A stretch of DNA of 64,000 bases from Blumeriella jaapii. Lineage: Eukaryota > Ascomycota > Leotiomycetes > Helotiales > Drepanopezizaceae. The DNA lies in contig VWND01000083.1 in assembly GCA_009599575.1 (NCBI GenBank), positions 62,001-126,000 of the forward strand, in the 5' to 3' direction. How positions within the stretch are numbered: position 1 is the stretch's first letter; each line of letters begins with the position of its first letter. The notes under the pieces were generated by a model. It worked only from the letters and a program-made list of their open reading frames with translations. It had not been told where the DNA came from and did no database searches. The position numbers and the translations under genes were made by a program. Below, in pieces: positions 8,641 to 61,659 of the stretch.

Positions 8641-9388
8641 ACAAAAAGATTAAAAACACTTTAACTGCTTCTTTTCTGGAAATCAGCTTAAAAGCGTATG
8701 CAATAATCTGGCAGATGGAAATTGGATAAACAATAGGTTAAAGGACTCGTCTTCGAACTGGTTTAGAAGGTTCAAAAAGTGGCTTGTCTGAATTATCGAT
8801 TATATTAAGCTGAAAAGCTATCGCGGCGAGAGCCTTCCTTCGGTCTTTGATATAACTATTCTTCGTAGAACGAGGAAGCTGTTCTGTCGAAAGGAAAAGA
8901 AAAAAAAAAGAAATAATAAAAAAGGGGTCGGCAGCCTGGAAAAATGGTGTAATTTCTTGTATTATTCCATTAGCGTCGCCATCGAAATTGACACCGCGAA
9001 TGAAATTCGATTTTTTCGCGCTTCGCACAGCGTCGTAGGTTTGCCACAATTGATCAAGGTTTTTGTTACGTTTTATAACGTCGTTTTAATAGCGAGATTA
9101 AATCTTTCGGAAGTGCAAATAAAAGATTTTAATACAACGAGCGTAAAAAGCTGTAAAAGAGTAAAACTTCGGCTAATAAAGCTTGCGTTTATTACAATTT
9201 AATAAAACTTAGTATTCGGCCAACCAAGCTTTTTTTAAAATCATATTATAATTTCCGAAGTTGATAATTAAAAAAAAAGTAAACGATTGTATTCGATTAT
9301 TAATAATAAAATTAAAAAGCGTAAAATATATGATTAAATAGCCACGAGCTTTATTATACTTTTTTATAAAAAAAAAAGCCGGGAAAAA
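8640..9388 (-). pseudogene. Protease-RT linker, A1
   Basis: Open, moderately preserved frame (clearest at 8738-9049) joining the protease to the RT. It includes an acidic and Ser/Pro-containing stretch but no domain I can name. Linkers of this type are cut out of the polyprotein. It has no neighbour other than its own pol domains. Confidence 0.5.
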
Positions 9389-11510: not shown

Positions 11511-13190
11511 ATCCGGCGTATTATATTTGCAATTTTCCGAAAAAAGTTTAATTTAATTTTCGTTCGAAGTAAAAAAAAAAAAACTAACGGGTTTATTTGG
11601 TTTTTATATAAAAATATCGAAATAAAACTTTTAAATCGTTTCGTCGTCGAAAACGAAAGTTTTAAATAAAATAATTTGATTTTATGCTTTTTGTATAATT
11701 TTTTTCGTAATAATTTCGATATTTTCTTTCAGGCCTTTTCGGTCGAAACGTATAATAATCGAAATTTTAAATGCTTTTATTAAAATTTGAAATATTAATA
11801 ATAACGGTACGACGTTTTTAAACGCAGCAGGCGTTTTTGATATTTACGTATTTAGTTTCGAAAAATCAAATTCAAAATCGTTTGAATTTTTTCTTTTCGG
11901 AATGCCGGCGTTTTTTAAATCTGATTCCGTAAAATCGTCGCGTTTTTTATTAATTAGTTTAAAACTTATAGCCCGGCGTCGATTTCCGGCTGTTTTATTC
12001 GCGGTGTTTTTTTTGCTAACGACGCGAATAATTTTTTTTTTTCGAACAGAAAATATTTCGAAAATGTCGGCGCGCTTTTTTACGTTTTTTATTTTTATTT
12101 TTTCCGGAATTATTTTTACAAATATAATAGGTTTTTTATATTCGAATAAGCGATTGTTTGCCGTTACGCTTTTGATTTCGTTTTCGAATTCGTTTTCGAT
12201 AATTAAAAATAAAAATCGCTAAATTGTTTTAGCTGTTTTAAAAATATTAATTGCTACCGCGTATGTTTTTTCGAATTAAACGAAAATAATATTAGCTTTT
12301 TCGTTTTTTTCGTCGTCGTAAATTTAAAATATCGAAATGGCGTCGTTTTTTTTTTTCGGTATAAAAATGCCGTATTTAGCGATATTTAATTTTTTGCTTT
12401 AAAAAAAAGTCAGATTTAAAATTTCGCAGCCGATTAAAACTTTTTTTAGCGATTATATAGCGTCGTCGACCAATTTGCAAATAGCTGTAAAAAAGCTTGT
12501 AAATCTGCGGGCTTTTAAATTGTTAATTTTTAAAATTTGCGCTTTAAAAATATAAGCGTTTAATATTTAAACTTTTTTTTTCGTAAAAGTAATAATTTCG
12601 AAAAAGCGAGCGAAATGTCGAAATAAAATAACACCGGTGATTTTATTAAAAACGTATTTTTAAATATTTTTTTTTCGTTGATTTAGCAAAAAACGCAAAA
12701 CTCGGTCTGTTATTTTTTTTTTATTATTTCGTGCTTTTTTTGCTTCGGCGAAAGCTTTTAAAGCGTTATCGTAATTTAGCAGAAATTTGTCGTAATTAAA
12801 GCTTTTGCGAACGAATTCAATTTTAACGAAGCTTTCGTAATCGAATAGAAATTCGTTAACGTTTTTAATTATTATATCGAATTGCTTTATAAACGTTTTT
12901 ACGAAAGCTGTTTATTAATTTAAAATAGCGGTATTATATATTTGTTTAAATTCGAAAAGATTGCGTATAATAATTTCGTTTTAAAATAAATTAAAAATAA
13001 GCTTGTTAAATTTAGCAACGCTTTGCTTAAAAAACGATATAATATCGATAGATTTGTTAATTAAAAAAGTATGTTATATTTATTAAAAAGTAAATAAAAA
13101 AAAATACGGAAATTGTAAAATATTTGTATTTAAAAGTTACGGAAATCCGCATATTGTTTTTTTAATAAATTATAACTGTTTAAGCAGGCA
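11511..13190 (-). pseudogene. N-terminal part of extra ORF of B1
   Basis: Continuation of the frame cut by A1 at 5044, colinear with B2 at about 21865-23515. It carries one 33-bp inverted-repeat cassette at 11997-12029 in the same phase as in B2. Recognisable conserved words shared with B2 and B4 include EFLFDYE and NYDKFLLNYDN. Function unknown. It is interrupted by many TAA/TAG and some frameshifts. Confidence 0.6.
11997..12029. repeat. 33-bp inverted-repeat cassette, B1 site 1 (extra ORF)
   Basis: Starts ATTCGCG and ends CGCGAAT, 33 bp in all, in frame inside the extra ORF. Read on the minus strand it gives Phe-Ala...Arg-Ile like the other cassettes. Confidence 0.8.
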
Positions 13191-15000: not shown

Positions 15001-15031
15001 CGGCTTATTCCGATCGTTTTCGGCCAAATTT

Positions 15032-15127
15032 ATTCGCGGTGCCAGCCGAAATAATAACGCGAATGCTTTTTCGGCCCGAAAATTAATATTTTTTATTCGC
15101 GGTGCTAGCCGAAATAACAACGCGAAT
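15032..15127. repeat. Paired 33-bp inverted-repeat cassettes, B1 sites 2 and 3
   Basis: Two cassettes, 15032-15064 and 15095-15127, separated by 30 bp. The spacer contains the palindrome TTTTCGGCCCGAAAA in degraded form. All three modules lie in one frame between RNase H and integrase on the minus strand and encode FALLFRLAPRI-type peptides. Confidence 0.85.
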
Positions 15128-15129
15128 GG

Positions 15130-17000: not shown

Positions 17001-17039
17001 CCGAATTAATAGCCAAAAATATTAATATTAGCTAATTTT

Positions 17040-17072
17040 ATTCGCGATATTATTTCGATTAATAATATAAAT
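17040..17072. repeat. 33-bp inverted-repeat cassette, B1 site 4
   Basis: Left arm ATTCGCG intact, right arm decayed to ATATAAAT. Same place as 27392, 48106 and 59613, between protease and RT. Confidence 0.7.
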
Positions 17073-17379
17073 GCTTTTAGCTAAGTATTTTCTAGATTTT
17101 GTTATAATTTAGCGTTTGTTTTAAAACCAAAGCCGGTTATTCGTTTTTCGATAAAACGTCGATTAAAAAAATTTTATCGCCGGCGACGATAATTTGATTT
17201 TGAAAAAATCGGTTTTAGTTTTAGAAAAAAGCTTTTATTTAGCCTTTCCGGTATATTTAAAACTAACGAAACTTTTCAAAATCCAAAGCATTTTAAAAAT
17301 AATAAAATAAAAGCATTTTTTTATTATTAAAAAGTTTTTATAAATAATAATACTTTTAATATCGACTTTTATATTTCGT

Positions 17380-20185: not shown

Positions 20186-23100
20186 TTAATTCGTTTTTGG
20201 CTTTTTTATTATTAGCTTTTACGAAAAAATAGCGTTTCGCTTATCGTTTAAATCATTTTGTTTATTTTGCTTTTTTAAAAAATAATTTAATAAAATATTA
20301 ATCGAAATATCGTTTAAATTTACGAACGTTCTAATAGCTTTTTCGTCGATAATATTATTAAATATCGCCGCGACAGATATTTTCTACGATTTTTTTTCGT
20401 AAATAATAAATTTTAGCTTCTGAACGTAGTTCTACGCTTTGCAAAAAGCGTTGAAAAGTTTCGTATTAAAATCGTAAAAATAATCGATTAATTCGTTGTA
20501 ATTAAAACCGATTAACGCTTTTGCTTCGCGCAAAACTAATAAATCGGACTACGATTGTTTACCGACGAATGCTTCTGAAAAAGCTTCAAAGCTTATAAAA
20601 AAAACTATTTTACGAAATAGTTCGGAAATAGTCGTTTGCAATCGAAACCACCGAAAATACTATAATTATTTTCGCCGCAATATAAACAATATCAAATTGC
20701 TTATCGGATTATCGTTTTCGAAATAGTTTTTATATTTTTGCGCCGTATAATTATTCGAATAAATTAGCATCGCGCCATCGGTTTTTTGGATTCTGAATCT
20801 AACGAAAACCTTTTGCTTAGTCGAGAAACTAATAAAAATCATTTTATTTTCTATTCCGTAACTTTCGGTTTCGTAGTCCGATAAAATAGCCGAGGCCATT
20901 GTTTTAAACGCGCTGAAATACGAAAAAGCTGAGCTTTTCTAAATAGTTTTAATCAGCTTGGCGTCGTGATATAATCGTAAATAAGCTTCGATTATTTTCG
21001 AATTATATACGAATATAAACAAAACGTAATAATCGAAAATAGCGTCGATAAGATTTTCGATTTTTTTTTTTTTTTAAAAATCGGCGATATCGAATTTTAT
21101 AATTATAATACGATCGGAGCCAGCGAAATTTAAAGCGATCGAAACGTCAAAGTATATCACGAAACGGCAGTTTCTAAAGTTTCGGATAATTAAAATAGCG
21201 AAATAAAAGCCGGGGTGTATTTTAAAAGTTTATTAAATAAAACTGTAAAATATATTAGCGAAAAAAGCTATAAGCGCTTTTTGGGTTTTAACCAATCGAA
21301 AATAATATTTGTATATAATTATTTTTTTTTTTATAAAATGCAGCAGTAGTTTGTTTTTTCCGTTATAAAACCTTACGTGGTTAACGAATTCGCAGCTTAG
21401 TTTAAGTAAATTTTAAAATATATTTTCGGTCGAAAAGCCAAAAAAGTCGATTTTTAAAAATATTCGTTGCTTTTATTTTTTTACGTTTTAATCGAACTTT
21501 ATAATCGCGTTAAAAATTTTAGAATCTGCTTTGAAATTTGCGTAGCCCAAATAAATTTTAGCACGCGCTTAAATAATTTTCGCAGTTTTTCGTCGGAATA
21601 TAAATTAATTATTAAAATCAATTTCGAATACGTCGTAATCCGAATTTTTAATAGCAGCGAATCGATCAGCGAAGCCGATAACGTTAACTTTTTTTATAAT
21701 CAAATCGTAATACGCCGCGTAACAACGTACGTAAAAATAGCAAAATTTGCCGTTTTTTCTAGCGTTGACGTTATTTGTAAAAACGAAATTAAAAAATCGA
21801 AGTTTTTCAACGAAAAAAAGTTCGAATAAAAACGGGTCACCGTTTTTAAAAATCTTTTTTATTTGTTTTAACGTATTATATTTACAATTTTCCGAAAAAA
21901 GCTTAATTTAGTTTTTATTCGAAGCAAAAGAAAAAAAGCTGACGGATTTATTTGGCTTTTATATAAAAATGCCGAAGTAAAATTTTTAAATCGTTTCGTC
22001 GTCGAAAGCGAAAGTTTTAAGCAAAGTAATTTAATTTTATATCTTTTGTATAATTTTTTCCGCGATAATTTCGATATTTTTTTCCAGGCTTTTTCGGTCG
22101 AATCGTGCAATAATCGAAATTTTAAATGCTTTTATTAAAGTTTGAAATATTAGCGGTTCGACGTTTTTAAACGCAGCAAGCGTTTCTGGTGTTTGCGTAT
22201 TTAATTTCGAAAAATTAAATTCAAAATCGTTTAAATCCTTTCCTTTCGAAATGCCGGCGTTTTTTAAATCCGATTTTGTAAAATCGTCGCGTTTTTTATT
22301 AATTAGCTTAAAGCTTATAGCTCGGCGTCGATTTCCGGCTGTTTTTATTCGCGATGCTTTTTCCGCTAGCGACGCGAATAGTTTTTTTTTCCGAACAGAA
22401 AAAGTTTCGAAAATATCGGCGCGCTTTTTTACGTTTTTTATTTTTATTTTTTTCGGAATCGTTTTTATAAATATAATAAGTTTTTTGTATTCGAATAAGC
22501 GGTTATTTGCTATCACGCTTTTAATTTCGTTTTCGGATTCGTTTTCGATAATTAAAAATAAAAATCGCTAAATTGTTTTAGCTGTTTTAAAAATATTAAT
22601 TATTACCGCGTATGTTTTTTCGAATTAAACGAAGATAATATTAGCTTTTTCGTTTTTTTCGTCGTTGTAAATTTAAAATATCGGAATAGCGTCGTTTTTT
22701 TTTTTCGGTATAAAAATGCCGCATTTAGCGACGCTTAGTTTTTTGCTTTAAAAAAAAGTCAGATTTGGGATTTCGCAGCCGATTAAAATTTTTTTTAGCG
22801 ATTATATAGCGTCGTCGATCAGTTTGCAAACAGCTGTAAAAAAGCTTGTAAATCTGCGGGCTTTTGGATTATTAGCTTTTAGAATTTGCGTTTTAAAAAT
22901 ATAAGCGTTTAATATCCAGACTTTTTTTTTCGTAAAAATAATAATTTCGAAAAAGCGAGCGAAATGCCGAAATAAAATAATACCGGTAATTTTATTAAAA
23001 ACGTATTTTTGAATATTCTTTTTTCGTTGATTTAATAAAAAGCGCAAAACTCGGTCTGTCACCTTTTTTTTGTTATTTCGAACTTTCCGTGCTTCGGCGA

Positions 23101-25260: not shown

Positions 25261-25383
25261 AATAATTTGAATAAAATAATTAAATAATATACGATTAAAT
25301 AAAAATTCTCCGTTTCGTAATTGTCGATTAAAAGTTTATTTTCGTCGTTAATCGGCTTATTCCGATCGTTTTCGATTAAATCC

Positions 25384-25479
25384 ATTCGCGATACTAGCCG
25401 AAATAATAACGCGAATGCTTTTTCGGCCCGAAAATTAGTGTTTTTTACTCGCGGTGCCAGCCGAAATAGCAACGCGAAT
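25384..25479. repeat. Paired 33-bp inverted-repeat cassettes, B2 sites 2 and 3
   Basis: 25384-25416 and 25447-25479 with a 30-bp spacer containing TTTTTCGGCCCGAAAA. Translated on the minus strand both give LFRLAPR-type peptides linked by NTNFRAEKAF. The second left arm reads ACTCGCG. Confidence 0.88.
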
Positions 25480-27380
25480 AGTTTTGGCTTTATAAAATTC
25501 AAAGCGCAAATAGCGAAATAACCGATTTCGTCAGCGATTTATTCGTCGATATTTTGTTCGTTTTATTTAGCGAAATCAAACGAATAAAAGCGTTTTCGTT
25601 TGGAAAGGCCGTTTGCCGTTGTATTAATTATTTTTTTAATATATTTAATTTCGAAATTTATAAATCGCATTTAAGCTATTTAATTAATAACGAGCGCTTT
25701 TGATAAATTATTAGCTTTTTTATTTAATTAATCGACAAAAACTTTTGCGTCTATTTTTAAAATAAAATATACGCCGTATAATTCGCTTTTTATTTTTTTT
25801 ATTGTTTTAAAAGCGCCTCGATATTTTCGTTTAATAGCATCGTAGCGTGCTTTCGCGGAAAACCATAAATCGCTTTCGAATCGTAAAAAATGCCGTTTTT
25901 TATTTTTATCGATTTATTATAATACAGCTTTTTAACCGAAAATATTAGCGTCGATAGTTAAAATAATCTTTTCTGCGTTTGGGCTGTAATCGATTCGTAT
26001 AAATAATAAGGCCGATAAAAAGTCGTTTTTAAGAATTTTTATAATTTTATTTTGTTTTTTTTTTTAAACGAAATCGATTTTTTTTTTTATCGTAGCGTAA
26101 ATAAATGCAGCTTTTTAAAAAAAATTTTTAATTTAATTACGGTAGTAAATCACAACGCTAATAAAAGCTCTAGCTTCGGTAATATTTTTACACTTTTTTT
26201 ATTCGCAGATTTTTTTAATTTTTTTTCGTTAAAAGTGGCGGCCAACGCTATCAGTTATATAGCCAACGATATTTATTTCGGATATGCAAAATTTTAATCG
26301 AAGGTTAATAATAACTTTAGCTTTTTCGAAGCAAACTATAATTTTATCGATGTTTTAAATATATTTTATTATATAACGTCGAATTTTAGAAAAAATCTTT
26401 TTATTATTATAATATAATTTAAAGCCTTTTATTTTAACGTCGTTAATATAAAAAAAAACAATATCGAAAATGCAAATTATAAGAATTTTATATATTATTT
26501 TTACGAATTAAACGATTGAATTAATAGCTTTTATAAATACTCTGGTTATACGCAGCAAACCGATTGGAATTTAAATTGTTATTATATTTCGAAATCGTAA
26601 ATCAAGCATCAAATGATCGTAGCCGGAAAACAAATCGAAAAAAAAGCGATTATTAATTTTGCGAATTCGTTCGAAAATTAATCGACGTTAAATGGCACGT
26701 TAGCGTTTCGAATCGTTATTTTGTTTATTTCGACGACCGCGGTAATAAATTTATAAATGCTTTTTTTTTTTTTCGCAACGATAAACTATTTGTTTTTGTA
26801 TAGGCCGTGGCAAAACTCGAAGATCTTTTGCTTAATTCGTTTTTTCAGCATTTCGACTATTTTATCCTAAAGGGTTTTAGAAACTGAAAAGGTCTTTTTT
26901 TGCCAGGTTTCGTAAAACACGGTTTTGATATCGATATAAAGCGTAATATTAAAACTGAATTAGCTTATTTCGGTAAAATCGAAAGCTATAGCTTTTTTTC
27001 GATTGCGTAAGATTTCGTATAAAATCTTTTTTTTTTTAGTAAAAATTAGGTTTCGATTGCTAAATTATTAAATCGTTTTTTTATAAATCGGCTGCCAGAT
27101 GATAAATTGAAAAATCGGCCGGTAATAAATCCTTCGAATTCGCTAGTAATTAATTAAAATAATTTTGTTATTTTATTTTTTTCAAACCAATCGTTTATTT
27201 TTCCGGAAATATTTTTACCGAATTCGCCGAGATTTACAAATCGTATTTTATTAGTTTTGCGCTTGTAAAAAATACTAATATTAATACAAAAAAATAAAAT
27301 ATATAAATCGGGTTTATTTAATACGAAAACGAAATCTTCGAAACTTTTATTTCCGAATTAATAATTAAAAATATTAATAT
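25480..27380 (-). pseudogene. reverse transcriptase and RNase H of B2
   Basis: RT fingers/palm: RNANVPFNVDQFSNEFAKL and FFFDLFSGYDHLMLDLRFR at about 26590-26710, which match the fungal form D-F-F-S-G-Y-D-Q with its catalytic Asp. The second active-site pair appears as FFYINDVKIKG (FIDD-type in relatives, one Asp now Asn), near 26450. RNase H follows at about 25560-26020, with SPNAEKIILTIDANIFG-like sequence and a tether region before the cassettes. Stops at Gln/Trp and one or two frameshifts. Confidence 0.78.
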
Positions 27381-27391
27381 TAGCCAATTTT

Positions 27392-27424
27392 ATTCGCGGT
27401 GCTATTTCGATTGATAACGCGAAT
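27392..27424. repeat. 33-bp inverted-repeat cassette, B2 site 4
   Basis: ATTCGCG...CGCGAAT, both arms intact, between protease and RT. On the minus strand it reads Phe-Ala-Leu-Ser-Ile-Glu-Ile-Ala-Pro-Arg-Ile. Confidence 0.88.
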
Positions 27425-27699
27425 GCTTTTAGCCGAGTATTTTCCAGGTTTTGTTATAGCCTAGCGTTTATTTTAAAACCAAAGCCGGTTATTTGTTTCC
27501 CGATAAAACGTCGATTAAAAAAATCTTATCGCCGGCGACGGTAATTTGATTTTAAAAAAATCGGTTTCAGTTTTAAAAAAAAGCTTTTATCTGGCCGTTT
27601 TCGGTGTATTTAAAGCTGACGAAACTTTTTAGAATTCAGAGCATTTTAAAAATAATAAAATAAAAGCATTTTTTTATTATTAAAAAGTTTCTATAAATA

Positions 27700-45909: not shown

Positions 45910-46177
45910 TATAACGATTTAATCAGTCGAAAGGCTAGGAGATTAATTAATTGGTCGCCGAGTTTATATAATATAAAAAACGAGCTTTTGGTTTTGTAAC
46001 AAAAATATTTATTTAAAATTAACAACTGCAAAAAACAAAGGTTGCTAAGGGAAAAAAGCCTTATATATATGAATGGTTTTTATAATTGATGGGAGATTCA
46101 CCAGGAGACCAGGGAGCTTGCAGCTATACGTAGTTGCTGGGATGATACACGAGGTGGCAAAAGAGTGAATCGTCACA
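45910..46177 (-). repeat. 5' LTR of A2 (268 bp)
   Basis: Starts TATAACGATT and ends TCGTCACA. It has a single copy of the 28-bp unit. Confidence 0.92.
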
Positions 46178-46239
46178 GAAATAACAACGCGAATAATTTC
46201 GGCTTTATAAAATTCAAAGCGCAAATAACGAAACAGCCG

Positions 46240-48060: not shown

Positions 48061-48105
48061 TTATTTCCGAATTAATAGCTAAAAATATTAATATTAGCTA
48101 ATTTT

Positions 48106-48138
48106 ATTCGCGGTGCTATTTCGATTAATAACGTAAAT
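48106..48138. repeat. 33-bp inverted-repeat cassette, B3 site 4
   Basis: ATTCGCG left arm intact; the right arm reads ACGTAAAT. Confidence 0.75.
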
Positions 48139-48439
48139 GCTTTTTGCCGAGTATTTTCCAGGTTTTATTATAATTTAGCGTTTGTTCTAAAACCAAAGCC
48201 GGTTATTCGTTTTTCGATAAAACGTCGATTAAAAAGATTTTATCGCCGGCGACGATAATTTAATTTTAAAAAAACCGGTTCCAGTTTTAAAAAAAAACTT
48301 TTATTTAGCCGTTTTCGGTATATTTAAAATTAACGAAATTTTTTAAAATCCAAAGCATTTCAAAAATAATAAAATAAAAGTATTTTTTTATTATTAAAAA
48401 GTTTTTATAAATAATAATATTTTTAACGTCGATTTTTAT

Positions 48440-59300: not shown

Positions 59301-59612
59301 TTATACGAAATATAAAAATCGACGTTAAAAGTATTATTATTTATAAAAACTTTTTGATAATAAAAAAATGCTTTTATTCTATTATTTTTAAAATGCTTTG
59401 GATTTTGAAAAGTTTCGTTAGTTTTAAATATACCGAAAACGGCCAAATAAAAGCTTTTTTCTGAAATTAAAACCGATTTTTTTAAAATCAAATTATCGTC
59501 GCCGGCGATAAAATTTTTTTAATCGACGTTTTATCGAAAAACGAATAGCCGGCTTTGGTTTTAGAACAAACGTTAAATTATAATAAAACCTGAAAAATAC
59601 TTAGCTAAAAAC

Positions 59613-59645
59613 ATTCGCGTTATTAATCGAAATAGCACCGCGAAT
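59613..59645. repeat. 33-bp inverted-repeat cassette, B4 site 4
   Basis: ATTCGCG...CGCGAAT with both arms intact, between protease and RT, same position as 17040, 27392 and 48106. Confidence 0.88.
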
Positions 59646-59699
59646 AAAATTAGCTAATATTAATATTTTTAATTATTAATTCGGAAATAAAAGTTCCGA

Positions 59700-61557
59700 A
59701 AATTTCGTTTTCGTATTAAATAAGCCAAATTTATATATTTTACTTTTTTGTATTAATATCAGCACTTTTTACAAACGTAAAACTAATAAAATACGATTTG
59801 TTAATTTTAATAAATCCGATAAAAATATTCTCGGAAAAATAAACGATTAATTCGAAAAAAACAAAGCAATAAAACTATTTTAATCAATTATTAGCGAGCT
59901 CGAAGAATTTATTACCGGCCGATTTTCCAATTTATTATTTAACAGCCGATTTACAAAAAAACGATTTAATAACCTAGTAATCGGAATTTAATTTCTGCTA
60001 AAAAAGAAAAAAGTTTTATACGAAATCTTACGCAACCGAGAAAAAACTATAATTTTCGATTTTACCGAAATGGATTAATTCAGTTTTAACGTTACGCTTT
60101 ATATCGATATTAAAACCGTGTTTTACGAAACTTAGCAAAAAAAAACCTTTTTAATTTTTAAAGCTTTTTAAAATAAAATAATCGAAATGCTAAAAAAACG
60201 AATTAAATAAAAGATCCTCGAATTTTACCACGGTTTATATAAAAACAAATAATTTATCGTTGCGAAAAAAAAAAAAGCATTTACAAATTTATTATCGCAA
60301 TCGTCGAAATAAACAAAATAACGATACGAAACGTTAACGTACCGCTTAACGTCGATTAATTTTCAAACGAATTCGCAAAATTAACGATCGCTTTTTTTTT
60401 CGACCTGTTTTTCGGCTACGATTATTTAATATTTAATTTACGATTTCGAAATATAACGGCAATTTAAATTTCAATCGGTTTATTACGTATAACGAAAATA
60501 CTTATAAAAGCTATTAATTTAATCGTTTAATTCGTAAGAATCGTATACAAAATTTTTATGATTTGCATTTTTAATATTACCTTTTTTTACGTTAACGACG
60601 TCGGAATAAAAAGCTTTAAATTATATTATAATAATAAAAAAATCCTTTTTAAAATTCGACGTTATATAATAAAACATATTTAAAACATCGACAAAATTAT
60701 AATCTGCTTCGAAAAAGCTAAAGCTATTATTAGTTTTCGATTAAAATTTTATATATCCGAAATAAATATCGTCGATTATATAATTAACAACGCTAACCGC
60801 TATTTTTAACGAAAAAAAATTAAAAAGATTTACAAAAAAAAAAAATATAAAAATATTACCGAAGCCAAAACTTTTATTAGCGTTATAATTTACTACCGCA
60901 ATTAAATCAAAAATTTTTTTTAGAAAGCTGCATTTATTTACGCTACGATAAAAAAAAAAATCGATTTCGTTTAGGAAAAAAAACAAAACAAAATTATAAA
61001 AATTTTTAAAAACGATTTTTTATCGGCTTTATCGCTTATACGGATCGATTACAGCCCAAACGCAAAAAAAATCATTTTGATTATCGACGCTAATATTTTC
61101 GGTTGAAAAACTATATTGCAATAAATCGATAAAAACAAAAAACGATATTTTTACGATTCGAAAACGGCTTATAATCCTTCGCGGAAATACGCTACGATAT
61201 TATTAAACGAAAATATCGAAGCGCTTTTAAAAAAAAAAATAAAATAAAAAGCGAATTATACGACGTATATTTTATTTTGGAAATAAACGCGAAAGTTTTT
61301 ATCGATTAATTAAATAAAAAAGCTAATAATTTATTAAAAGCGCTTATTACTAATTAAATAACTTAAATGCGATTTATAAATTTCGAAATTAAACATATCA
61401 AAAAAACGATTAATACAACGGCAAACGGTTTTTTCAAACGAAAACGCTTTTATCCGTCTGATTTCGCTAAATAAAACGAATAAAATATTAACGAATAAAT
61501 CGCTAACGAAATCGGCTGCTTTGTTATTTGCGTTTTAAGTTTTATAAAATCAAAACT
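59700..61557 (+). pseudogene. reverse transcriptase and RNase H of B4
   Basis: LLASSKNLLPADFPIYYLTA (about 59895-59955), the RT palm with FSGYD-equivalent sequence near 60400, and a thumb region near 60700-60960. RNase H follows: DFLSALSLIRIDYSPNAKKI near 61010-61075 and IIDANIFG with the first acidic residue. The tether runs to the paired cassettes. Several frame changes and stops. Confidence 0.78.
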
Positions 61558-61653
61558 ACTCGCGTTATTATTTCGGCTGGCACCGCGAATAAAAAACATT
61601 AATTTTCGGGCCGAAAAAGCATTCGCGTTATTATTTCGGTTGGCATCGCGAAT
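61558..61653. repeat. Paired 33-bp inverted-repeat cassettes with palindromic spacer, B4 sites 2 and 3
   Basis: 61558-61590 and 61621-61653. The 30-bp spacer contains TTTTCGGGCCGAAAA (61602-61616), itself a perfect 7-bp-arm palindrome. All modules are in frame on the plus strand, coding for RLAPR-type peptides. Confidence 0.88.
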
Positions 61654-61659
61654 GGATTT

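Follow-up and report, generated by a model that had tools for sequence, protein, structure and literature searches.

A short palindromic unit shared by the coding regions of two retrotransposon families of Blumeriella jaapii

The window analyzed here, a stretch of 64 kb from the fungus Blumeriella jaapii, contains copies of the retroelement families B and C that carry a short palindromic unit within their coding regions. An earlier note on this DNA had described the unit as an inverted repeat of exactly 33 bp, ATTCGCG...CGCGAAT, and had named twelve coordinates for it, all in family B. We found the unit at 12 of 12 coordinates, and exact arms at a spacing of 15–25 were far more frequent in the window than expected (8 vs 0.04). 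Arms with up to three mismatches, numbering 14 vs 9.94 expected, were within the range of chance, so that the signal is carried by the exact arms. The proposed exact form holds in part: the arms are letter-perfect in 8 of the 12 units, whereas those at 25447 and 61558 retain 13, that at 48106 retains 12 and that at 17040 retains 10 of the 14 arm letters. In addition, the unit is almost everywhere bordered by a pyrimidine before it and a purine after it, and because this border is almost constant, a length of 35 bp describes the unit better than one of 33 bp. Two units had been overlooked, one with a single arm mismatch at 8969–9001 in the different family C, and a family B remnant at about 46178–46194 that is truncated by a long terminal repeat (LTR). 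The units are given below at 35 bp, with B1 denoting the site in an extra open reading frame (ORF), B2a and B2b the two sites in the linker between RNase H and integrase, and B3 the site upstream of the reverse transcriptase (RT), where the adjoining protease label is the putative assignment of the earlier note.

8968..9002, plus strand: homologous unit of family C (C coding strand minus), between presumed protease region and RT
11996..12030, minus strand: B1, copy 1; exact arms; FASLAKKTPRI; extra ORF
15031..15065, minus strand: B2a, copy 1; exact arms; FALLFRLAPRI; RNase H-integrase linker
15094..15128, minus strand: B2b, copy 1; exact arms; FALLFRLAPRI
17039..17073, minus strand: B3, copy 1; 10/14 arm letters; upstream of RT
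22346..22380, minus strand: B1, copy 2; exact arms, fold; inside open stretch 22040-22567
25383..25417, minus strand: B2a, copy 2; exact arms
25446..25480, minus strand: B2b, copy 2; 13/14 arm letters
27391..27425, minus strand: B3, copy 2; exact arms
46178..46194, minus strand: B2b, copy 3, remnant; cut by a family C LTR that ends at 46177
48105..48139, minus strand: B3, copy 3; 12/14 arm letters
59612..59646, plus strand: B3, copy 4; exact arms, fold
61557..61591, plus strand: B2b, copy 4; 13/14 arm letters
61620..61654, plus strand: B2a, copy 4; exact arms, fold

As the earlier note had proposed, a single reading phase is used throughout family B, all 12 units encoding F/L-(A/T/I)-x6-(P/S)-R-(I/M/V). 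The extra ORF bearing B1 (window 22040–22567, minus strand) and the 98-residue linker piece of family B gave no Pfam match; the assignment of family B to the Ty3/gypsy class is taken from the domains of its protein relatives, which carry PF00078, PF17919, PF17917, PF17921 and, in some cases, PF00665. The B copies at 15, 25 and 46 kb of the window are spaced by about 10.35 and 20.71 kb, which suggests tandem or LTR-sharing arrays. When the sites were compared with each other, B1 and B2 in the window shared 23–27 of 33 letters in reverse complement and 19–23 in forward orientation, and in less decayed copies the counts were 25 and 23 vs 22 and 22. On visual inspection, the reversal concerns mostly the loop, as the arms agree forward. 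At B3, two versions of the 5' arm predominate, TTCGCG and TTTACG, and these are found in mixed combination with two inner versions, which looks as though parts had been swapped between units.

Family C is a Ty3/gypsy element with RT, RNase H before integrase (Pfam) and LTRs with TG..CA ends. Its 35-bp unit was present in 29 of 29 other copies compared, these being the best-scoring among 40 scored of 684 candidates retrieved with a query that included the unit, which would have placed copies lacking the unit further down the ranking. Only one of the six frames of the region, on the minus strand, lacks a stop common to 80% of the copies; in undecayed copies this frame is open, continuous with the RT and encodes NFTRGANFDGDASG. 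The unit falls near residue 228, between a weak protease match (70–171, below the Pfam cut-off) and the RT (487–646), and it is reversed relative to the coding direction, in a phase unlike that of B and with an unrelated peptide. To compare the families, a letter profile built from 15 B units only was scanned over the undecayed C region. It scored 29.0 bits on the C unit, on the strand opposite to coding, and 17.4 bits on the other strand, while the next best place in the region reached -5.4 bits and the best of 5,999,320 simulated positions 17.1 bits. Three 3-kb family A loci contained no unit by the same profile (best -5.5 bits). The B units and the C unit thus share sequence, and because the C unit is reversed and in another phase, we argue for copying of the nucleic acid over repetition of a peptide.

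We extended the comparison to protein relatives. The family C polyprotein matched 126 proteins, 120 of which were listed, with named matches from Monilinia, Sclerotinia and Clarireedia; in the 31 of these 120 that were aligned, the linker was highly variable and the unit peptide was found in none. Family B matched 11 proteins, of which seven were aligned: three (P0121, P0124 and P0127) have much shorter linkers, and the other four have long linkers without the unit peptide. Six motif patterns, one per frame, likewise detected no unit peptide among the 131 listed relatives, and two shorter patterns gave, respectively, no match and a single four-letter match elsewhere. The unit-free relatives would agree with a later insertion, with the qualification that a clean gap cannot be shown because the linkers do not align.

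The appearance of the units is partly shaped by the decay of the surrounding repeats. With a G+C content of 27%, depletion of CA and TG and an observed/expected ratio of 3.22 for CG, the window has the look of repeat decay. Across 29 family C copies compared with the less decayed copy L074, 1371 of 1381 changes were C>T or G>A, and C was lost at 38% of CpA, 53% of CpT and 44% of CpC sites vs 1.1% of CpG sites. The corresponding losses were 42%, 58%, 38% and 2.6% for family A (16 copies vs L043) and 62%, 64%, 47% and 6.2% for family B (nine sequences vs L072, a reference that is itself partly decayed). In the RIPCAL account (PMC2621366), the usual target is CpA, with CpT or CpG reported for some fungi; a decay that affects CpA, CpT and CpC to a comparable extent but spares CpG looks unusual. 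Because this decay spares CpG, CGCG persists while its surroundings turn into A/T, converting CACTCGCG to TATTCGCG. The ATTCGCG arms in their exact form are hence partly a decay product; the palindrome is original, but that hundreds of places show it in exact form is in large part due to decay and descent rather than to fresh copying. Less decayed A and C copies of about 0.43–0.52 G+C (L042, L043, L049, L051–L055 and L074–L076) also occur beside heavily decayed ones, several of the former having long open frames.

The original structure is best seen in the least decayed B unit, that of L072, which reads CACTCGCG-T-TGCCA-TTTCGGC-TGGCA-C-CGCGAGTG and forms a 35-bp hairpin with 13 of 14 arm positions paired and a fold of -21 kcal/mol (z -5.0). 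Both undecayed outer arms were matched exactly at two places, L072 among them. For three B units of the window, fold energies range from -8.8 to -13 kcal/mol, with z values of -2.1 to -2.7, whereas the C unit forms a weaker hairpin with 11 of 14 pairs, its decayed window copy folding no better than shuffles (z 0.22). The main rival to a history of copying, which we consider unlikely, is that the units represent sites under selection as DNA or RNA, such as a protein-binding palindrome or a hairpin for packaging or reverse transcription, kept for their function. The strong fold of the least decayed copy and the filled state of the B3 and C copies examined would suit such a role, and a palindrome can work either way round. 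However, fixed presence is also expected from inheritance within a repeat family, and the C unit is the poorer palindrome. Moreover, the units examined share a T at position 9 opposite a C, or its decay product T, at position 27. This common asymmetry points to descent and, being shared, disfavours selection for the palindrome alone.

The earlier note had compared the unit with mobile palindromic elements and had asked whether it exceeds chance in the genome and enters other coding genes. In the genome of 47,372,573 bases on 91 contigs, the exact 33-bp pattern occurred 1083 times vs 0 for a backward control, and the excess fits family B copies sharing sites. Since scattered units would have unlike flanks, varied neighbouring letters would be expected from dispersal; A or G directly preceded ATTCGCG at only three places, and G or C stood three bases before the unit at only four. 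Checked singly, six of these seven proved to be locally altered B sites; the remaining one, L006, is a B3 site at whose end lies a family C LTR. Thus, spread into other coding genes was not borne out, as these flank-letter tests, which are blind to decayed units and to units whose flanks agree by chance, revealed no setting outside families B and C. Viral-contig and prokaryote-genome collections also lacked the pattern, which is no surprise for a fungal sequence.

The sites themselves gave a similar picture. With one pair of flank anchors we recovered 17 filled B3 sites, two of them the window's own, all of equal length, and no empty one. A separate anchor search yielded no empty C site, without a filled count for those anchors, and an empty-site pattern found none among 76 loci. 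Nor was a consistent target duplication seen in the flanks, where there was no empty site for comparison. Most simply, these results mean that the four sites are fixed in family B and were amplified along with it. The situation named earlier as speaking for ancestral sequence, the same four sites in all relatives, nearly obtains within this genome. The exception is the B copy L073 (1501–1535), which has one unit, not two, between RNase H and integrase; recombination between neighbouring units may explain this as well as an older state would.

Family C LTRs were observed within or at the end of units at window position 46177, in L076 (1605/8017) and in L006 (1534), the last having been chosen by a pattern that favours an odd base after the unit. 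The LTR in L076 lies in the unit of another C copy, with GACGC flanking both ends. LTR ends TGTGACGAT within 28 bases of TTCGCG numbered 23 genome-wide vs 1 for the control, and by eye 4 of the 23 were in units and 2 doubtful. We set aside the idea of an integration hot spot and claim no enrichment from these 23 near ends.

A mini-element still moving in this genome, of the Rickettsia or the MITE kind, could account for the in-frame position, the inverted-repeat structure and the two host families. We consider it very unlikely, however, given that the flank-letter tests found no other contexts, that the anchor searches found no empty B3 or C sites and that no consistent target duplication was seen in the flanks. 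MITEs have inverted ends around a short centre, and the units do possess terminal inverted repeats, but no spread beyond two host families was found. Furthermore, an undecayed end half plus pyrimidine, absent from the known B and C sites, occurred once in the genome and once in the control, so that no longer or autonomous transposon with these ends is suggested by a search that misses decayed ends. Rickettsia palindromic elements, in the account cited, are likewise palindromic repeats in frame in coding sequence, but they measure about 150 bp and occur in many unrelated genes of several genomes (PMC10969869), whereas the units described here measure 33–35 bp and, with the patterns tried, were found at five fixed sites in only two retrotransposon families. 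The analogy drawn in the earlier note therefore extends to an in-frame palindrome in linkers, but not to length or to dispersal in unrelated genes. In size and shape, the units also resemble the double-hairpin elements, GC clusters and palindromic repeats of fungal mitochondria, very short hairpin repeats that have been argued to be mobile (PMC7218506). As described there, those hairpins belong to organelle DNA, and their presence varies from species to species; the present units are found in the coding sequence of LTR elements that have RT, RNase H and integrase domains, and no optional sites were found. Judged by length, spread and location against what these sources describe, membership in neither group holds.

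It is also possible, and in our view improbable to a similar degree, that duplications within B combined with a chance likeness in C, exaggerated by the CpG-sparing decay. Such decay leaves CpG words and hence more look-alikes, and plain identity sets the unit apart less clearly: B2b matches the C unit at 27 of 35 letters, the C region is matched at up to 25 of 35 letters by 35-mers from elsewhere in the B copy L072, and window position 2172 matches the most decayed unit at 25 of 33. On the other side, the comparison used undecayed C copies, the profile score is far outside the simulation and the entire palindrome is in register. Least credible is a repeated peptide duplicated within B, for example a protease cleavage site between polyprotein domains, which would suit the position between domains and the constant phase of the 12 B units, but which we set aside since the C unit lies on the other strand in another phase with an unrelated peptide, the codons are much the same at each B site and the motif occurs in none of the 131 listed relatives.

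Our favoured explanation is copying of the nucleic acid, in which a small hairpin, in the form of DNA or RNA, probably entered the coding sequence of two families at five or more sites. All units would descend from one imperfect palindrome of 33–35 bp, with an 8-bp stem, one mismatch, a 5-bp stem and a 7-nt loop, and its copying into the coding regions of the two Ty3/gypsy families, at least five events in all, would be ancient. Insertions may have survived only in variable linkers and only if the frame was preserved. The most likely route would be strand transfer at the hairpin during reverse transcription of the element RNA, rather than a transposase, a preference that stems from the hosts being retrotransposons, from the hairpin formed by the unit and from the failure to find an element with its ends. 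The unit would then have frozen, reaching about a thousand copies only through multiplication of its host elements, before the CpG-sparing C-to-T decay erased other sequence and left the CGCG arms prominent. Since an empty site, a target duplication and a source element were not found, we infer the insertion itself, as we do the selection for frame and the copying route. The reverse-complement likeness of B1 and B2 speaks against the proposal, as simple copying does not explain it, and so do the four of seven aligned B relatives whose linkers are long yet lack the unit. The less striking plain identity of the C match and the weaker hairpin of the C unit count against it as well. Taken as a whole, one ancestral palindrome copied at least five times into two Ty3/gypsy families and then frozen, we give this account an even chance. 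Of the earlier proposal, the in-frame palindromic unit in linkers is retained, as a sequence shared by two families, whereas present mobility is not supported. That it is a self-copying RNA hairpin riding on retrotransposon RNAs through strand transfer by the RT, tolerated only in frame in linkers and lacking a protein of its own, we regard as rather doubtful. Titles and abstract openings of the literature on palindromic inserts in fungal retrotransposons revealed no such case.

CpG-sparing decay can make ancient short repeats seem freshly conserved, a trap wherever decayed fungal repeats are interpreted. Should the copying route indeed be reverse transcription, hairpins of such small size could represent a class of retroelement parasites, able to add peptides to polyproteins and to move between unrelated families.
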